Assembly (NCBI GenBank): GCA_018713165.1
Contig: DVFR01000041.1
Location: 1-54,306, forward strand
Direction: 5' to 3'
Source of the DNA: Candidatus Coproplasma stercoravium
GTDB lineage: Bacteria; Bacillota; Clostridia; Christensenellales; Borkfalkiaceae
Length of the DNA stretch: 54,306 nucleotides
Shown here: positions 34,084 to 42,984 of the stretch, piece after piece
How the letters are laid out: each line of letters opens with the position of its first letter
Position numbering within the stretch: the first letter of the stretch is position 1
Made by a program: the position numbers and the translations under genes
Notes under the pieces: generated by a model
Databases searched by the model: none
The model's input: the letters and a program-made list of their open reading frames with translations, nothing else
Told to the model about the DNA's origin: nothing

Positions 34084-35397
34084 TTGAAAGCTGTTAAAGG
34101 CAGATTCTTTTTCGGCGGCGTGCACGTGCCCGACGAAAAGTCGCTTGCAAAAGCTTCGCCAATCGACAAGCTGCAGCAGCCGCCCGAAGTTAAGATTGCC
34201 ATGAAGCAATCGCTCGGCAGGCCCGCCGTTCCCTGCGTAAAAGCCGGGGACTCCGTTGCCGAGGGGCAGCTTATAGCAACGGCGGACGGCGCGGTATCTT
34301 CGAACGTGTTTGCAAGCATCAGCGGCACGGTTACCGAAATTTGCGAGCTTGAGAACGAATGCGGGGCGAAAGACACGTTCATCGCGATAAAGGGCGACGG
34401 CGAGGGGCGCAAAACCTTCCTTTCCCCTTTGAGCGACCCCTCGCCCGAGGAAATCGTTCAGAGGATAAAAGACGCGGGCATTGTAGGGCTCGGCGGGGCG
34501 GGTTTCCCCACCGCCGTAAAGCTTAAACCGCACAACCCCGTGGATACGTTTATAATAAACGGCTCGGAGTGCGAACCCTACCTTACGTGCGACTACCGCG
34601 TAATGATAGAAAACACCGACGAAGTTGCGCGCGGCGCGAGGTACATTGCAAAGGCGCTCGGCGTGAGCGACATAATAATAGGCATAGAGACCAACAAGCC
34701 CGACTGCATTGCGGCATTTGAAAAATACGACGACATTAAGGTAGTCGCGCTGAGAAAGACCTACCCTATGGGCGGCGAAAAACAGCTTATTTACAGCTGC
34801 ACGGGCAGAAAGGTACCCGCGGGCAAGCTCCCCTCCGACGTCGGCGTGATAGTAAACAACGTTGCCACCTGCCTTGCCGTGTGCGAGGCGATAGAGCTGG
34901 GCAAGCCCGCATACGAGGCAATACTCACCGTTTCGGGCAGAGCGATAAAAAACTGCGCGAACGTGAAAGTGCCCGTCGGCACGCCTTTCGGCTATATAGT
35001 CGAGCAGTGCGGCGGAGAGGCCTCCGCGCCCAAAAAAGTGGTGCTCGGCGGGCCGATGACAGGCGTTGCCATAAAGAGCTACGACAGTTACGTTAAAAAG
35101 ACGACGAGCGGCATACTTCTGCTTTCGGAAAAGGAGGCCGCAGCCGAGGAGCCCACTCCCTGTCTGAACTGCGGGCTGTGCGCAGACCACTGCCCCATGC
35201 ACCTTATGCCGATGAACACCGCCTTCTACTCCTCCGCGGGCGACTTTGAAAACGCGGTGAAACTGGGCGGAACGCTGTACTGCATAGAGTGCGGCGTGTG
35301 CGAATACGTATGCCCCGCCAAGCGCCCGCTTTTGCAGGCGATAAGAAAGACCAAGAATGCCGTGCGCGCGCAGGGCAAAACTGAAGGAGGCAAATAA
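34084..35397 (+). CDS. rnfC: Rnf complex subunit C, NADH/flavin/Fe-S protein
   Basis: The peripheral cytoplasmic subunit exchanges electrons with NAD(H) in the ion-pumping ferredoxin:NAD oxidoreductase. In 437 residues it has the FMN/NADH-binding GLGGAGFPTAVKL and the NGSECEPYLTCDYR motif, a SLBB region, and two [4Fe-4S] motifs (CLNCGLCADHC and CIECGVCEYVC). Start codon TTG at 34084 is supported by AGGAGG at 34074-34079. It heads the operon C-D-G-E-A-B, with stop and next start overlapping as TAATG. Confidence 0.96.
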   Translation: MKAVKGRFFFGGVHVPDEKSLAKASPIDKLQQPPEVKIAMKQSLGRPAVPCVKAGDSVAEGQLIATADGAVSSNVFASISGTVTEICELENECGAKDTFIAIKGDGEGRKTFLSPLSDPSPEEIVQRIKDAGIVGLGGAGFPTAVKLKPHNPVDTFIINGSECEPYLTCDYRVMIENTDEVARGARYIAKALGVSDIIIGIETNKPDCIAAFEKYDDIKVVALRKTYPMGGEKQLIYSCTGRKVPAGKLPSDVGVIVNNVATCLAVCEAIELGKPAYEAILTVSGRAIKNCANVKVPVGTPFGYIVEQCGGEASAPKKVVLGGPMTGVAIKSYDSYVKKTTSGILLLSEKEAAAEEPTPCLNCGLCADHCPMHLMPMNTAFYSSAGDFENAVKLGGTLYCIECGVCEYVCPAKRPLLQAIRKTKNAVRAQGKTEGGK

Positions 35398-36545
35398 TGG
35401 ACAACAGCATAGTAATATCCACCCCTCCCCACGTAAAGTCGAGGCGCACGACGAGAAAAATTATGCTCGACGTGCTCATCGCGCTCGCTCCTGCGGCGAT
35501 ATGCGGCATCGTCTACTTCCTGCTCGACGCGTTCATACTCGAGCTCACCTGCGTGGCGTTTGCGGTAGTTGCCGAATTCGTGTACTTCTTCATAGCAAAG
35601 GGCGGCTTTAACGTGCGCTTTGCAAACAAGGAGACGAAGGAGATAAACAAAAAGATAAAAGAGCTCAAAAATTCGGGACAGCCCTACGACGAAGTGACGG
35701 CGCAGCTTAAAGCAATCCGTGCGGAGCTGAAAAAATCTGCCTTTGCAAAGTCGCGCGGGGTGTGCCTGAACTGGGTTAAGCAGTTCGACTTCACCTCGGT
35801 GGTTACGGGGCTTATTCTCGCACTCATACTTCCTCCCACGGTGCACTGGTACGAGGCGGCCATCGGCGCGGTGTTCGCGATAGTAGTCGTAAAAATGGTA
35901 TTCGGCGGGACGGGCAGGAACATTGCCAACCCCGCGGCGGTAGGCAGGGTGTTCATGTTCATATCGTTCACCCTCACCACCTACACGGCGGCGCACTTCG
36001 GCGCGATTGACGGCGACACTCTCTCTTCGGGCGCGACGTACCTCACGGGCGCGCTCCTCACCGACAATCCCGATATCGGCGCAATGTCGCTTTTAGACCT
36101 CTTCCTCGGAACGGGGCTCGGCGGCTGCATAGGCGAAACGTGCAAACTTGCGCTCATCGTCGGCTATATATATCTCGCCGTGCGCAGGGTTATAAAGTGG
36201 TGGCAGCCCATACTGTTCCTCGCGGTTGCGGGACTTATGACGGTTGCGTTGAACGGCGACTTCGCGTTCTTCCTGCCCTCCATACTCTCGGGCGGCATTA
36301 TGTTCGGCGCGATATTTATGATGACCGACTACGTAACCTCGCCCAAGGGCGTTTACGCGCAGATTGTTTACTACGCATTCGGCGGTCTGCTCACCGCAGT
36401 TCTGCGCCACTTCACGCATCTGGAAGTTACATCCTTCGTTATAATAATAATGAACCTGATTGTTCCCCTTTTGGACAACTTTATAAGGCGCAAGCCGTTC
36501 GGATACAGGAAAGAAAAGAAAGACAAGGAGGGCGCCGGAAAATGA
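35397..36545 (+). CDS. rnfD: Rnf complex subunit D with cytoplasmic insertion
   Basis: This membrane subunit carries a covalent FMN. The flavinylation motif SGAT is at about 211-214 (SSGATYLTG), so Thr214 is the expected site. About eight to ten helices are predicted. The protein is 382 residues, versus about 310-350 usually. The extra length is a polar, helical insert at about residues 72-125 (KETKEINKKIKELKNSGQ, then LKAIRAELKKSAFAKSRG) after the second helix, probably cytoplasmic. It overlaps rnfC by 1 nt and rnfG by 4 nt. Confidence 0.95.
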   Translation: MDNSIVISTPPHVKSRRTTRKIMLDVLIALAPAAICGIVYFLLDAFILELTCVAFAVVAEFVYFFIAKGGFNVRFANKETKEINKKIKELKNSGQPYDEVTAQLKAIRAELKKSAFAKSRGVCLNWVKQFDFTSVVTGLILALILPPTVHWYEAAIGAVFAIVVVKMVFGGTGRNIANPAAVGRVFMFISFTLTTYTAAHFGAIDGDTLSSGATYLTGALLTDNPDIGAMSLLDLFLGTGLGGCIGETCKLALIVGYIYLAVRRVIKWWQPILFLAVAGLMTVALNGDFAFFLPSILSGGIMFGAIFMMTDYVTSPKGVYAQIVYYAFGGLLTAVLRHFTHLEVTSFVIIIMNLIVPLLDNFIRRKPFGYRKEKKDKEGAGK

Positions 36546-38392
36546 GTACGGAAAACGGAAAAGAGAAAAAGCCGTTTACTGTGAAAGGCTTTTTTAAGAG
36601 CACCTCTTTTAAATGTATTGCGGTGCTGCTTGCGATAGTGCTCATCTCGGGCATACTGCTTACGATATGCAACAGCCTTTTCTACGTTTCGGAAGCGGAG
36701 AGGTTGCAGAGAGTTTTAAGCAGCGTTTACGGCAGGGAGGTCACGGCGACGGCAGTCGCCCTCGACCAGCCCAACATAAGCGAATACGAAATTGAAGTTA
36801 ACGGCTCGACGGGAAACTACGGCGATTCTATGGCGGAAGAGATTAAAGACGGTTCGCTGTTCGTGCATAAGACGGAAAGCGACGTGCTTGCCCTTCTGAA
36901 CGCCGACGGCGACTTCACCACGGGCAACCTCGACGGCGAACTTGCCACGGGCGCGACCTACTCCACCTTCCTCTGCTCGTACGCGGCGCTGTTCGCGGCG
37001 GCGAATTACGAAAACGCGCTCTCGGGCACGGGCGGGCAGCTTGTGCGGACGAAGTATATCGACACCGACAACACGAGCTACACGACCTCCGGCGATAGCG
37101 TAACTTTTAATATCGTTACCACCGAATATTCGCGCGCGGGCGCATTCACAATCAACGTTACGGTTGGCGAAGGCGGCGTTATCACCGCTTACGAAATTGT
37201 TGAAAACGGCTCCATTCCCCCCTCGTTTGCCGACAGAATGCCTCCAAATGTGCTTGACGGCACGCTGTTTGTAGGCAAGGACGAAAGCGGAATGCTCGAA
37301 GTTTTCCCCGAAAACGGAATGACCCCCGACGGCGTGGACGATACGCTCTCCACGGGCGCGACGCAGTCGAACTTCTTGTGCACGTACGGCGCGCTGTTCG
37401 CGCTCTCCAACTACGAGGCGATACTCGGCGGGGCGGCGATAGACGAAACGCTTGAATACACGCAGTATATCGACCTTGAAAACACCGAGGCGACGGCAGG
37501 CGACGGCGAAGTGACATACACGATTGTTACCACCGATTACAGCCGCGCAGGCGCGTTTACGATAAACATTACCGTACGCGGCGGCTTTACGACGAGCTAC
37601 ACGGGCGGCACGGTCAACAGCGTTTACTATATAGAGGACGACGGAAACTACCTCGTGAACGCGACGGGCACGGGCGGCTTCTCGGGCGGCACCGTAACCT
37701 GCTGGGTAGTCGTTAACATGACCGACGGCGCGGTGAGCGGCGTGGGCAGAGTAGTGATAGACAGCAACTCGGGCCAGTCTTATATTAATAAGGTAAACAG
37801 AGACGACGTTTTAAGCGAATTTGAGGGCGAGTATTCCGAAGGCGAAGACGCCTCCGCATGGACGGGCACGGGCGCTACCATGTCGCTCACGGCGATAACG
37901 GGTTCGGTTAACACCGCGCTCTCGTTCGTAAGGAGCGAGCTTGCCTCGGGCGGCGCTTCAAATCCCCTTGCAGGATACCGGTACACCGACTATATCAACG
38001 CATACTCCACCACCATCTCGGCGGAGGGCAGCAATGTAAACTATACTGTCGTAACCACGGCGGCGGCTCAAGCACAGTCGTTCACGATTGATATTACCGT
38101 GGGCGCGGGCGGAGTTATAACGGCTTATAATATTACGACAAACGGCTCAACTTCCGACAAATATATAAACAACATGCCTGCAAACGTTAAAGACGGCACG
38201 CTGTACGTCGGCAAGAATGCCGAAGCGATACGCGCACTGCTCGGCGGAGCGGAGGGCGACTTCGGCCCCGACGACCTCGACGATACGCTCCAGACCAACG
38301 CGACTTACTCGACGTTCCTGTGCACGTACGCGGCGCTGTTTGCGTCGGCAAACTATGAAATGGCTCTCACCGCTGAGGGAGGTGCAAACTAA
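36542..38392 (+). CDS. rnfG: Rnf subunit G, expanded to about four FMN-binding modules
   Basis: The true start is ATG 36542, overlapping the rnfD stop (ATGA); the open frame upstream is out of frame with rnfD and spurious. The 616-residue protein has one N-terminal helix (about 24-46) and a long outer part. Four FMN_bind-like modules end in TGAT at 136-139, TGAT at 271-274, TGAT at 443-446 and a degenerate TNAT at 585-588. Modules 1, 2 and 4 share the near-identical segment STFLCTYAALFAxxNYE; module 3 resembles ordinary RnfG. Usual RnfG has one module and about 200 residues. Up to three or four covalent FMNs (Thr139, 274, 446 and perhaps 588) are inferred, attached by ApbE. Confidence 0.9.
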   Translation: MSTENGKEKKPFTVKGFFKSTSFKCIAVLLAIVLISGILLTICNSLFYVSEAERLQRVLSSVYGREVTATAVALDQPNISEYEIEVNGSTGNYGDSMAEEIKDGSLFVHKTESDVLALLNADGDFTTGNLDGELATGATYSTFLCSYAALFAAANYENALSGTGGQLVRTKYIDTDNTSYTTSGDSVTFNIVTTEYSRAGAFTINVTVGEGGVITAYEIVENGSIPPSFADRMPPNVLDGTLFVGKDESGMLEVFPENGMTPDGVDDTLSTGATQSNFLCTYGALFALSNYEAILGGAAIDETLEYTQYIDLENTEATAGDGEVTYTIVTTDYSRAGAFTINITVRGGFTTSYTGGTVNSVYYIEDDGNYLVNATGTGGFSGGTVTCWVVVNMTDGAVSGVGRVVIDSNSGQSYINKVNRDDVLSEFEGEYSEGEDASAWTGTGATMSLTAITGSVNTALSFVRSELASGGASNPLAGYRYTDYINAYSTTISAEGSNVNYTVVTTAAAQAQSFTIDITVGAGGVITAYNITTNGSTSDKYINNMPANVKDGTLYVGKNAEAIRALLGGAEGDFGPDDLDDTLQTNATYSTFLCTYAALFASANYEMALTAEGGAN

Positions 38393-39042
38393 TGAACAAA
38401 TATGCAAAGATAAGCCTTGACGGACTTATATTCCAGAATCCGACGTTTATGCTCGTCCTCGGCACCTGCCCCACTCTCGGCCTCATTTCTTCGGCTTCGA
38501 GCGCGGCGGGCATGGGACTTACGGTAGTGGTCATCTTAACGCTGAGCAACATGCTGATTTCCGCGCTGAGAAAGGTTATTCCCAACGAAGTGCGCATTCC
38601 CGCTTACATCGTTATAATAGCCACGCTGGTAACGCTTGCGCGAATGGTGCTCGAAAAATTCGTGCCCGACTTATACGACAGTCTGGGCGGATTCCTCGCG
38701 CTGATAGTCGTAAACTGCATCATACTCGGCAGAGCGGAAGCCTTCGCGAGCAAGCACACCGTGATAGAATCTGCGCTCGACGGCGTGGCGACGGGTCTCG
38801 GCTTTACGGCGGCGCTCACGATAATGGGCATAATATGCGAGTTCCTCGGTTCGGGTTCGATATTCGGGCTCAGGATAATGGACTTTACGATAGGCGCGTT
38901 TGCGACGCCTGCGGGCTCGTTCCTCGTGTACGGCACGTGCATAGCGGTGTTCGTTTATATCATGGATACGATAGAGCGCGTGCGCAGGGAGAAAAAATAC
39001 AAGCCCTTAACGCACGAATCGCTTGCACAGGAGGTGGCGTAA
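38392..39042 (+). CDS. rnfE: Rnf complex subunit E
   Basis: This integral membrane subunit of 216 residues has six predicted helices; with RnfA it forms the membrane-embedded pair that holds a [2Fe-2S] site and lines the ion path. Motifs NPTFMLVLGTCPTLG and RVPNEVRIPAY-like segments match the family. The start overlaps the rnfG stop (TAATG), and a GGGAGG ribosome site lies inside the end of rnfG. Confidence 0.95.
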   Translation: MNKYAKISLDGLIFQNPTFMLVLGTCPTLGLISSASSAAGMGLTVVVILTLSNMLISALRKVIPNEVRIPAYIVIIATLVTLARMVLEKFVPDLYDSLGGFLALIVVNCIILGRAEAFASKHTVIESALDGVATGLGFTAALTIMGIICEFLGSGSIFGLRIMDFTIGAFATPAGSFLVYGTCIAVFVYIMDTIERVRREKKYKPLTHESLAQEVA

Positions 39043-39648
39043 ATGGGAACGTTTATTGCGATAGTTCTTGCCGCGGTGCTCACAAACAACTTCATCACCG
39101 TGCGCACGTACGGCATCTGCCCCTTCCTCGGCGTTTCTAAAAAGACCTCGTCCGCGGTGGGCATGGGCGTTGCCGTCACCATCGTCATGGCGATTGCGAC
39201 GGCGGTCACCTACCCCCTCTACGAGTATGTTATGGTGCCGCTCGGAATAGATTTCCTCGAAATCATATTCTTCATCTTCATCATCGCCGCGCTCGTGCAG
39301 ATGATTGAAAAGGTCATACAAAAGCTTTCGCCCACACTCTACAACGCGATGGGCATATACCTGCCGCTTATCACCACCAACTGCGCGGTGCTCGGCGTGT
39401 GCGAACTCGTAATCGGCGACATGAGCTCGATTATAGGCACGGCGACGATGAACACCGGCTGGGCGGTTTTATACGCCGTATTTGCCGGGCTCGGCTTTAC
39501 GCTCGTTATGATTATAATGAGCGGACTGAGGGAGCGCATAGGATTGTATTCGAGCATGCCCAAGGCGATAAAGGGCTTCCCCATAGCGATGATTACGGCG
39601 AGCATAATCTGCATGGCTTTCACCGTGTTCAGCTACATTCAGGTTTAA
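39043..39648 (+). CDS. rnfA: Rnf complex subunit A
   Basis: The membrane subunit of 201 residues is homologous and inverted in topology to RnfE. Family motifs VLTNNFITVRTYGICPFLGVSKK and NCAVLGVCE are seen, including the Cys residues of the membrane Fe-S site. It directly abuts rnfE, with AGGAGG before the ATG. Confidence 0.95.
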   Translation: MGTFIAIVLAAVLTNNFITVRTYGICPFLGVSKKTSSAVGMGVAVTIVMAIATAVTYPLYEYVMVPLGIDFLEIIFFIFIIAALVQMIEKVIQKLSPTLYNAMGIYLPLITTNCAVLGVCELVIGDMSSIIGTATMNTGWAVLYAVFAGLGFTLVMIIMSGLRERIGLYSSMPKAIKGFPIAMITASIICMAFTVFSYIQV

Positions 39649-39658
39649 GGAGGGCGAT

Positions 39659-40486
39659 ATGAATTTACTCGTTACACTCGGTACGGTAGACGCCCAGACG
39701 TGGAAAACGGTAGGCATTGTGGCAGGCATACTCGCGGGAATCGCGCTTGTGCTCGTAATTGCCATTCTTATTGTAGGAAAGGTATTCAAAGTAGACGTAG
39801 ACGAAAAGGTTACGGCGATACTCGAAAATCTTGCAGGCGCAAACTGCGGCGGCTGCGGCTGCTCGGGTTGCAGCGGATTTGCGCAGAAACTTGCGTGCGG
39901 AAAGGGCGACCTTGCCGACTGCCACGTAACCTCGCCTGAGAAGAAGGCAGAGATTGCCAAACTTCTGGGCATAGAGATGAAGGACGAGGAGCCGACGGTT
40001 GCCATAGTAAAGTGCAAGGGCGGCGAAAACGCAAACGACGCCTTTGAATACAACGGCAACCCCACCTGCGCGGCGAACGCCTCGCTGCTCGGCGGAAACA
40101 AAATGTGCAAAACGGCGTGCCTCGGCTGCGGCGACTGCGCGGCGGTCTGCCCCGAAAAGGCTATAAAGCTTGTGAACGGCGTTGCCGAAGTTATACCCGA
40201 AAGGTGCATTTCCTGCGGGGCGTGCATAAACACCTGCCCCAAGCACATTATAGAGCGCATACCCGTAAAGGCGCCCGTATATGTCGCCTGCTCCTCCCAC
40301 TGCAAGGCAAAGGAAGTTATGCAGAGTTGCAAAGTCGGCTGCATAGGCTGCGGCGTATGCGCGAGGAGCTGCCCCCACGGCGCTATAACCATGGTAGACA
40401 ATCTGCCCGTATTCGACTATTCGAAGTGCACGGGCTGCCTCACCTGCGTTGCAAAATGTCCGAGGAAGATAATTTATACAAGGTAA
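39659..40486 (+). CDS. rnfB: Rnf complex subunit B, ferredoxin-type electron-entry subunit
   Basis: This subunit accepts electrons from reduced ferredoxin. In 275 residues it has an N-terminal helix, a Fe-S motif (ANCGGCGCSGCSGF ... ACG), then four CxxCxxC-type clusters: CLGCGDCAAVC, CISCGACINTC, CIGCGVCARSC and CTGCLTCVAKC, giving about five [4Fe-4S] clusters. An AGGAGGG site precedes ATG 39659. It is last in the operon and a strong bidirectional terminator follows. Confidence 0.95.
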   Translation: MNLLVTLGTVDAQTWKTVGIVAGILAGIALVLVIAILIVGKVFKVDVDEKVTAILENLAGANCGGCGCSGCSGFAQKLACGKGDLADCHVTSPEKKAEIAKLLGIEMKDEEPTVAIVKCKGGENANDAFEYNGNPTCAANASLLGGNKMCKTACLGCGDCAAVCPEKAIKLVNGVAEVIPERCISCGACINTCPKHIIERIPVKAPVYVACSSHCKAKEVMQSCKVGCIGCGVCARSCPHGAITMVDNLPVFDYSKCTGCLTCVAKCPRKIIYTR

Positions 40487-40613: not shown

Positions 40614-41108
40614 TTATCCGACGGGAATGGTGTCGTCGCTGCCAAAGTAGCCCGACGGCATTATGACGAGCCTGTGCGGCGTGCACGTTATCATGCCCGA
40701 AGTATCGGTTATTGCGGGCGTATACACGCAGTCGCGGCGGTTTGAACAGTCGCTCTCCGTCACCCTTACGGTGCGCGCCGATTTATCTATTAAAATAACG
40801 TTATAATCTGTATGCTCCTCCGCCGAGCCGCCGTCGGTGCAGAAGGTTATTTCAAGTTCGTCCCCGCCGTCGGACACGGCTATATTCTGCGGCAGGAGCA
40901 CGCTGTACTCGTCGGAATCAAAGTCGTACGAAAAGGCGAGGTTGTTGTTGTAATACACCTCCACCCCGTCAAGCGCGCTGCGGTTATAGCCGAACGTGAC
41001 GGCGAGAAAGAGCGCCGCCACCGCGAGCAGAATGACGCCGTATATGAGTATGTCCCAGATTTTAAAAAATCTGTCTTTTTTCGCCTGTCCGACTTTTTTT
41101 AATGACAT
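40614..41108 (-). CDS. NusG domain II-containing membrane-anchored protein
   Basis: The 164-residue protein has one N-terminal helix (IWDILIYGVILLAVAALFLA) and a beta-rich outer domain of the NusG_II family, with the C-terminal signature DTSGMITCTPHRLVIM. Such proteins often accompany apbE, rnf and Gx-transporter genes in Firmicutes; their role is not settled, but electron-transfer or flavin-protein assembly is plausible. Three Cys (SDCSNRRDC and ITC) could form a disulfide or bind a metal. It follows apbE by 42 bp. Confidence 0.8.
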   Translation of the reverse strand: MSLKKVGQAKKDRFFKIWDILIYGVILLAVAALFLAVTFGYNRSALDGVEVYYNNNLAFSYDFDSDEYSVLLPQNIAVSDGGDELEITFCTDGGSAEEHTDYNVILIDKSARTVRVTESDCSNRRDCVYTPAITDTSGMITCTPHRLVIMPSGYFGSDDTIPVG

Positions 41109-41150: not shown

Positions 41151-42365
41151 TTATTTTTCGCCCGTGAACACCACGTCGCCGTTTTCGTCCGTCTCGCTTG
41201 CGAGCTTATAATGCTCTCCCGCAAGCTCGTACTCTCCCTCTTCCATATTCGTTACGACGAGTTTTTCACCCGCGGAATTTAAATATACGAAAGCTATTTT
41301 GAGGTTCCTGGTTTTTACCGAATCGGAATTTATATATTCAATCGCCCTGTCGAGCCCCATTGCGCTTATCGCGGTAGTACGCGCGTCGGCCTCCGCCGCC
41401 GTGCCGCCGAGGCAGCTTGCTGTGAGTATGCCCGTTTCAATCGGCGAACCCGTGAAAGGATTGATTATATGGCAGTAGCGCTTGCCGTCTACCTCATAAT
41501 AATTTTCATAGTCGCCGCTCGTGGAGAGGGCAACGTCGCGCACGCGCACCGACATATAGTAGTCGGAGGAATTGCCGCGCGGGTCGCGGAAAGTGAGCGA
41601 CCACAGCCCGTCGGAACTGCCCGCCGAGCCGTTTATCGCCATGCTTGACGAGCCGAAGGAAAAGTATCCGTTTTCGTAGCCGACTCTGTCGATATAATCG
41701 TCTATTTTGTCGGCGACGTACCCCTTTGCTATGCCGCTCAAATCTATCGCGAGAGAATATACGGTGTCGTCCCCCTCCACGGTGACATAGCTTTCGGGCT
41801 TTACGACATAACAGCCCGTTTCGTCTTTATAGAGCCGAATGTCGCCGAAGCTTTCCGAAAGGGTGCGGAAGGCTTCGATGTACTTATCCTCGGGGAGCTC
41901 GTCTAAACTCTCCCTGTCGTACGGGCGCTTGCTGTCGGAAAATTCGCGGGGCGCAAAGCCGTACAAATCGACGCTGTAATATATCCCGGGGTTGTAGTAG
42001 CCCTCTGTTTCGTCGTACATGCTCACCGCCGTCTGCAACAGTTCGTAGGTGAACGACTCTATGCGCACGATTTCGCCGGGGTCGGCGGCGTTGAACCTGT
42101 AAATATCCGAGCTCTCTATCGTGGTGCTGAACGCGTTTTCGTAGTTGTAAATACTTGCACTTACATCCGCGCCGACAGATTCGGCGCGGGACTTTGCCTC
42201 TTCGGTGGAGAAATCGTCGTACAGCGCGAGGGTAGACATGGTGCCGAATACGTAGTCGGTACGCCTGTATCTGGTTACGGCGGAGCTATCGTCTGCACAG
42301 CCGAGAAATATAGAAGCGCACGCGGCGAGCGCCGCGGCTGAAACAATGACAGATTTTTTAAACAT
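41151..42365 (-). CDS. apbE: FAD:protein FMN transferase (ApbE), lipoprotein
   Basis: The enzyme attaches FMN from FAD to Thr in S/TGAT motifs of secreted or membrane proteins, here the likely modifier of RnfG, RnfD and the FMN lipoprotein. In 404 residues it has a signal peptide and lipobox (IFLGC, Cys22), YVFGTMSTLALY, DLSGIAKGYVADK, GYFSFGSSSMAINGSAG, HIINPFTGSPIETG and EADARTTAISAMG with the metal-binding Asp. It is slightly longer than usual (about 330-350). A TATACT box 10 nt before the ATG, with TTGCTT 17 bp upstream of it, gives a very short leader. Confidence 0.93.
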   Translation of the reverse strand: MFKKSVIVSAAALAACASIFLGCADDSSAVTRYRRTDYVFGTMSTLALYDDFSTEEAKSRAESVGADVSASIYNYENAFSTTIESSDIYRFNAADPGEIVRIESFTYELLQTAVSMYDETEGYYNPGIYYSVDLYGFAPREFSDSKRPYDRESLDELPEDKYIEAFRTLSESFGDIRLYKDETGCYVVKPESYVTVEGDDTVYSLAIDLSGIAKGYVADKIDDYIDRVGYENGYFSFGSSSMAINGSAGSSDGLWSLTFRDPRGNSSDYYMSVRVRDVALSTSGDYENYYEVDGKRYCHIINPFTGSPIETGILTASCLGGTAAEADARTTAISAMGLDRAIEYINSDSVKTRNLKIAFVYLNSAGEKLVVTNMEEGEYELAGEHYKLASETDENGDVVFTGEK

Positions 42366-42534: not shown

Positions 42535-42984
42535 TTATCCGGCGTTATAATTCCTGAGCGCGTCCTGCACGGCGCGGAGAAGCCTGCCGCTGCAATTCGT
42601 CGCTCCCGATATGAGGAAGTCGGAATCGCCTACCTCAGAAGGCGTGCCGTCTACTCCGCAGGTGACTTCAATCGCGAGGACCTCATCCACCGTTTTGCCG
42701 ACGTAGGCTGCGAGAAGTTCGTCCCTGCTTTCGAGATAGGCGTCCTTCCCGCCCCAGCTGTCGGTCACTTCGACGTAGTCGCTCGGAACGATTTCAACCG
42801 ACTGAATCACGCCCTCTTCTACCACAACGCTCACCTTAACTCCGTAATCGGCGCCGCCCCAGACGTTGGCGTAGTGATATTCGCCCTCGAGCCCGCCGTC
42901 GGTGCAGGCGGCAAAGCCCGCCGCAATGAATACGGAAACAGCACATATTGCAAGGCATATAAGAGCCCTTTTTAACTTACTCAT
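42535..42984 (-). CDS. FMN-binding lipoprotein (single SGAT domain)
   Basis: The 149-residue secreted lipoprotein starts at ATG 42984 with AAAGGAG at good spacing; 19 upstream open codons lack support. It has a signal peptide and lipobox (GFAAC, about Cys26). The FMN_bind domain is of about 110 residues, with GVKVSVVVEEGVIQSVEIV and a clean flavinylation motif DFLISGATNCSGRLLRAV. Next to the ApbE gene it is a likely substrate and a mobile or surface electron carrier, possibly receiving electrons from RnfG. Cys at TCGVDG and TNCSG are also present. Confidence 0.85.
   Translation of the reverse strand: MSKLKRALICLAICAVSVFIAAGFAACTDGGLEGEYHYANVWGGADYGVKVSVVVEEGVIQSVEIVPSDYVEVTDSWGGKDAYLESRDELLAAYVGKTVDEVLAIEVTCGVDGTPSEVGDSDFLISGATNCSGRLLRAVQDALRNYNAG

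Follow-up and report, generated by a model that had tools for sequence, protein, structure and literature searches.

Rnf gene clusters encoding multi-flavinylated RnfG proteins were described in 2021, and it was proposed that they offer electrons a second route to acceptors outside the cytosol (Meheust et al. 2021, PMC8238504; this and the other papers cited here are drawn on in excerpt). The same excerpts report RnfG proteins with multiheme domains in the Christensenellales. RnfG has been described as a shuttle that moves between RnfA/RnfE and RnfD (PMC12174285), and the secreted multi-flavin proteins SaFMN3 and CbFMN4 were shown to be flavinylated at three and four sites (PMC10339131). The system analyzed here lies on contig DVFR01000041.1 of Candidatus Coproplasma stercoravium (assembly GCA_018713165.1), whose 54,306 nucleotides we call the window. 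It is an rnf operon whose rnfG gene encodes a 616-residue protein with four candidate flavin sites. An earlier note, made from the DNA letters alone, had proposed an RnfG expanded to about four flavin mononucleotide (FMN)-binding modules, a possible multi-flavin wire that would store electrons or lead them to an outer acceptor; the idea of a multi-flavin RnfG had already been published (PMC8238504).

The rnfG frame (Table 1) translates into 616 residues, in agreement with the earlier note. The gene is located between rnfD and rnfE in a contiguous and complete operon of the order rnfCDGEAB, identified by Pfam and NCBIfam scans, and both this location and the anchor helix assign the protein to the RnfG subunits. 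An origin of the long RnfG from fused or broken genes is ruled out by the single open frame between the overlapping rnfD and rnfE. Profiles for the anchor (N), the core (C), and the repeat (R) were derived from the window's own sequence and that of the fetched loci. They resolve the protein as N-R-R-C-R, and the N-terminal portion of one more repeat is joined to the core. Residues 1–66 are 88–89% identical to three orthologues. Modules 1 and 2 are placed between the membrane anchor and the core, and module 4 is a C-terminal addition. Modules 1, 2, and 4 share 47–54% pairwise identity, whereas module 3 matches module 2 (60% identity) over 48 N-terminal residues, the remainder being of the RnfG-core type; module 3 is thus an N-terminal repeat part joined to the ancestral RnfG core (residues 351–470). 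Modules 1, 2, and 4 make up a repeat family of their own. Four equal copies are ruled out, and the proposal of modules of one kind survives for modules 1, 2, and 4 but fails for module 3.

Several lines of evidence identify the modules as FMN_bind domains. The same repeat family scores above the FMN_bind cut-off in a relative, and the core of the orthologue L002 reaches 28.1 bits, also above the cut-off. In profile comparison, the repeat aligns to canonical RnfG with TGAT in register, and the core profile matches 21 RnfG proteins from other families at 97.9%, these 21 having been picked partly via a weak match to that profile. The AlphaFold model of module 4, with a predicted local distance difference test (pLDDT) score of 92, displays the FMN_bind fold and matches the single-domain crystal structures 8p2a and 8p2b. 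The model and these matches rule out a new fold for the repeat.

The candidate acceptor sites are located in TGAT at residues 136–139, 271–274, and 443–446 and in TNAT at 585–588, exactly where the earlier note had read them. The pattern [ST][GN]A[ST]x[ST] is observed four times in RnfG against a mean of 0.09 upon shuffling; none of 20,000 shuffles reached four, which rules out chance as the source of TGAT. The acceptor is Thr or Ser in 77 of 77 cores. Among 109 repeat rows, 14 lack acceptor coverage and were left out; in the other 95, the acceptor is Thr (74), Ser (13), or Gly (8, one of them in a shortened row), so that Thr or Ser is kept in 87, and Ser occupies position +2 in 90. Among the relatives, four have TNAT in their core and a fifth has TNAS, which suggests that TNAT may function as a flavin site. 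Covalent FMN is probably present at most of the four RnfG sites, and we hold this with good confidence. The repeats have, in addition, a Cys in 79 of 95 rows and a strongly conserved SNxLCxYAALFAxANY stretch after the acceptor, both absent from the RnfG-core type.

The genus analyzed, which we take to belong to the order Christensenellales in GTDB, contains RnfG proteins with one to seven modules. Anchored RnfG frames were found in 70 loci; L074, cut after the anchor, was left out, leaving 69 readable proteins, at least two modules being present in 55. The layouts are N-C (14), N-C-R (35), N-C-C (4), N-C-R-R (8), N-R-R-C-R (2, window included), N-R-R-C-R-R (2), and N-R-R-C-R-R-R (1), with a single protein each of N-C-R-R-C, N-C-R-R-R, and N-C-R-R-R-R-R-R. 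These counts are minima for L038, L040, L050, L091, and L102, which end at or near contig ends; the L105 RnfG is spread over several frames, the single-module L107 belongs to another family of the order, and the genomes G018, G046, and G062 are outside the loci set. The window's layout, for which the earlier note had proposed a search of related genomes, is present in a second RnfG, and modules between anchor and core are present in five. In a tree of RnfD, built by a quick method from 68 of the 70 rows, these five proteins form one group (one change; Shimodaira–Hasegawa approximate likelihood-ratio support 93, not starred), and the four module-number classes require 15 changes. In the window, L002, L003, and L004 (Candidatus Coproplasma stercoripullorum, Clostridia in NCBI), the modules 1 and the modules 4 group by position (support 99 and 92), and module 2 does not fully do so; the inserted layout is thus older than these species. 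The ratio of nonsynonymous to synonymous substitutions (dN/dS), estimated by plain counting relative to three orthologues with dS of 0.76–1.41 and one value saturated, is 0.20–0.36 in the repeats, 0.09–0.19 in the core, and 0.04–0.08 in the anchor region. By this measure, the RnfG modules are under purifying selection. Elsewhere in the order, genomes G098 and G106, from other families, contain 46 and 19 FMN_bind matches, respectively, many in frames of 600–900 residues.

Table 1. Features of the rnf locus in the window (positions on the forward strand)
Feature	Position	Strand	Remarks
rnfG	36542..38392	+	616 aa, multi-module
RnfG membrane anchor helix (residues 21–46)	36602..36679	+	helix in model, low pLDDT there
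RnfG module 1 (residues 67–162)	36740..37027	+	repeat type without N-terminal third; repeat profile 99 bits; ELATGAT, candidate FMN acceptor Thr139
RnfG module 2 (residues 163–300)	37028..37441	+	full repeat; repeat profile 155 bits; TLSTGAT, candidate acceptor Thr274
RnfG module 3 (residues 301–470)	37442..37951	+	core profile 145 bits; canonical RnfG profile 97.9%; candidate acceptor Thr446
RnfG module 4 (residues 471–610)	37952..38371	+	full repeat; repeat profile 157 bits; AlphaFold pLDDT 92; candidate acceptor Thr588 in TNAT
rnfC	34084..35397	+	TIGR01945 457.9 bits, above cut-off
rnfD	35397..36545	+	Pfam NQR2_RnfD_RnfE 260.5 bits; own candidate flavin site SGAT (DGDTLSSGAT)
rnfE	38392..39042	+	Rnf-Nqr 194.1 bits
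rnfA	39043..39648	+	Rnf-Nqr 168.8 bits; rnfA is top NCBIfam match
rnfB	39659..40486	+	ferredoxin-type [4Fe-4S] subunit; Fer4 and FeS families; PRK07118 type RnfB
NusG domain II protein	40614..41108	-	adjoins apbE; PF07009 39.4 bits
apbE	41151..42365	-	flavin adenine dinucleotide (FAD):protein FMN transferase; PF02424 178.5 bits
Lipoprotein-like frame, 149 aa	42535..42984	-	one FMN_bind-like domain (SGAT); directly upstream of apbE; absent from the earlier note

Each Rnf subunit of the operon other than RnfG scores above the cut-off of its own Pfam family. Among the NCBIfam subunit models, those for rnfC and RsxE pass, and the TIGR models for rnfA, rnfB, rnfD, and rnfE fall somewhat under their cut-offs, which indicates a diverged Rnf operon. 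The candidate acceptor of RnfD is Thr or Ser in 70 of 70 aligned relatives. RnfD also has, at residues ~70–115, a charged, probably helical stretch between early membrane segments, with a weak likeness to coiled-coil families. Heme motifs (CXXCH) were not seen in the RnfG translation, which was inspected by eye, and the genome as a whole was not given a dedicated heme-motif search. The apbE and NusG-II genes follow the rnf operon on the opposite strand; this ApbE, the only match in the organism's own genome, qualifies as extracytosolic.

The lipoprotein-like protein has a signal followed by a Cys (GFAAC), and its ATG at 42984 is preceded by AAAGGAG. It scores 14.7 bits with FMN_bind, under the cut-off of 22, and matches the first 200 residues of a relative's multi-FMN lipoprotein at 48% identity (E 5e-22; match at 42544–42981, minus strand). 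It is also 45–48% identical to domains of an L144 protein that itself contains three FMN_bind stretches. Homologues of those first 200 residues are present in 45 of 73 genomes of the genus, the window's included, and are often enlarged to multi-FMN proteins. A protein with a repeat or an FMN_bind domain directly adjoins apbE in seven of 16 loci, and in five of the seven that stretch also holds the rnf operon; the adjoining proteins that were read mostly have a lipoprotein-type N-terminus, L154 showing none in the frame read. The lipoprotein is a plausible partner of the multi-module RnfG. In L108 (7333–9102, plus strand), a repeat-type FMN_bind module is fused to ApbE in the same 590-residue frame, possibly a flavin transferase carrying its own substrate domain.

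How might such a protein work? Our reading, which we favor with modest conviction, is that this RnfG is an ordinary shuttle subunit of Rnf enlarged by FMN_bind domains, whose extra flavins most likely provide an electron side branch to the outside. The FMN of the module 3 core would be reduced by the [2Fe-2S] cluster of RnfA/RnfE and would in turn reduce the FMN of RnfD. Modules 1, 2, and 4, each with one covalent FMN attached by the neighboring ApbE, would be tethered around the core and, if flavinylated, would place three more FMN beside it. Flavins near the core would divert electrons from the U-shaped path, and we infer that electrons are exchanged between RnfG modules. The electrons would then be passed to an acceptor outside the cytoplasm, either via the small FMN_bind lipoprotein or directly. 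This mechanism is supported by the gene, the operon, the module fold, the motif conservation, the purifying selection, and the adjacent ApbE and lipoprotein. Export of electrons from the complex is the more doubtful part, to which we give slightly less than even weight. It would be bolder, and rather unlikely, that the Rnf of the whole genus is an outlet for ferredoxin-level electrons, a heme-free, all-flavin path that arose by stepwise additions to RnfG before and after its core, together with multi-flavin lipoproteins beside apbE, and whose length differs between species, from one to seven flavins.

A number of observations weigh against this reading. Pfam FMN_bind reports no module in the window's RnfG at E-values up to 1; in the scan of its own genome, only module 3 of RnfG is matched, with 11.7 bits against the cut-off of 22, and no module passes in the six-module protein of L004. 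The earlier note had named an FMN_bind hit to a single module as grounds for giving up its proposal, and in the letter this is what the window's RnfG displays; since the same repeat passes in a relative, we judge the Pfam model too insensitive here. NCBIfam returned nothing for the RnfG protein, and searches of PDB sequences with RnfG (phmmer) and with the repeat profile returned unrelated weak matches only. Foldseek alone, without VIA-align, is weak (best E 0.048, none below 0.001, IscU chains next). The full-length model, built on five rows, has a predicted template modeling score of 0.58 and its best structural matches in canonical RnfG/NqrC; it therefore gives no inter-flavin distances. 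At the sites, the ApbE-substrate motif Dxx[ST]GA[ST] is represented by [ST]GA[ST] at three and by TNAT at module 4, and the opening Asp is absent from all four. Across the genus, this Asp occurs in four of 77 cores, eight of 94 repeats, and one of 70 RnfD, and in five of 21 RnfG of other families; replacement of the Asp by Ala is described as having minor effects only (review, PMC12052999). In the seven-module RnfG of L077 (G043; 1139 aa), the last five of six repeats have NGSS or NGST instead of TGAT. The lipoprotein has no homologue in the nearest relatives, G002, G030, and L004. With the direct Pfam match set aside, relatives, profile comparison, and fold agree on about four FMN-binding modules: judged by fold as well as by sequence, the FMN_bind domain occurs more than once in RnfG. 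The earlier proposal is thus supported in part, as to four FMN_bind-type modules in the RnfG of a complete Rnf operon with ApbE beside it, though not as to their being of one kind.

The extra FMNs could instead act within the normal Rnf cycle as a flavin antenna or electron buffer, holding electrons and favoring productive contact during the swing of the core, with no electron exit. The modules flank the core on both sides on one tether, the shuttle role of RnfG has been described (PMC12174285), and one module suffices in 14 of the 69 readable relatives, so the extras look accessory. We consider this account unlikely, though it deserves weight; it leaves unexplained the FMN_bind lipoprotein of the window and the multi-FMN proteins beside apbE in relatives.

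If flavins were absent or incidental, the folded repeats could serve as a spacer or scaffold that lengthens or shields RnfG or binds a partner or the cell wall. Gly replaces the acceptor in all three repeats of L051 (G016; RnfG of 674 aa, a natural case of three such repeats) and in single repeats of L060, L072, L091, and L112; in some relatives, repeats therefore persist without a flavin site, a point that also tells against the side-branch reading. The lack of the motif Asp and of Pfam recognition points the same way. Against a scaffold stand the conservation of the acceptor and of the +2 Ser, the agreement of the fold with flavinylated domains, and the presence of apbE nearby in the 16-locus set wherever contig extent permitted a look, and we regard it as improbable. 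Least probable to us is near-neutral accretion, in which recombination between repeats would let copy number drift without function: the variation among close relatives, with its 15 class changes and range of one to seven, fits such drift, yet the positional orthology of modules 1 and 4 in four species and the purifying selection argue that the modules are old and kept. The electron side branch remains the reading we prefer.

If the added modules carry flavins, this one genus would offer a natural Rnf series with one to seven extracytosolic RnfG flavins and defined partners, and the 2021 proposal of flavin-only Rnf electron outlets would become testable by comparing natural variants. More generally, Pfam FMN_bind can overlook multi-module RnfG proteins of this type.

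The window's RnfG shares the anchor, the core (module 3), the operon, and its best full-length-model matches with canonical RnfG/NqrC (7zc6, 9eri, 8rb9; 4u9s), which differ in having a single FMN_bind domain and ~200 residues. SaFMN3 and CbFMN4 (PMC10339131) likewise combine several FMN_bind domains in a single extracytosolic chain, and 8p2a and 8p2b match module 4; these proteins are apparently not RnfG subunits, and their domains are separated by flexible linkers. FMN-bind2 (PMC11334425), compared by description only, is also an FMN_bind subtype with several copies per protein, yet it measures ~160 residues and occurs in even-numbered pairs, as opposed to a repeat of ~130 residues here. An open-access literature search on repeats in RnfG gave no fitting paper among the matches listed, and we do not claim the layout as unpublished. 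With the multi-flavinylated RnfG of PMC8238504, the protein shares more than one FMN_bind domain, the place inside the Rnf operon, and the electron-branching proposal. Unlike the RnfGs in the excerpts of that work, the window's modules fall under the Pfam FMN_bind cut-off, are of a distinct repeat type, and include two between anchor and core; unlike the multiheme RnfG of the Christensenellales, the protein has no CXXCH. Four features stand apart from that report, as far as its excerpts go: the anchor–core insertion, a single genus that spans one to seven modules, repeats of a type that Pfam scores below its threshold, and the lipoprotein beside apbE.
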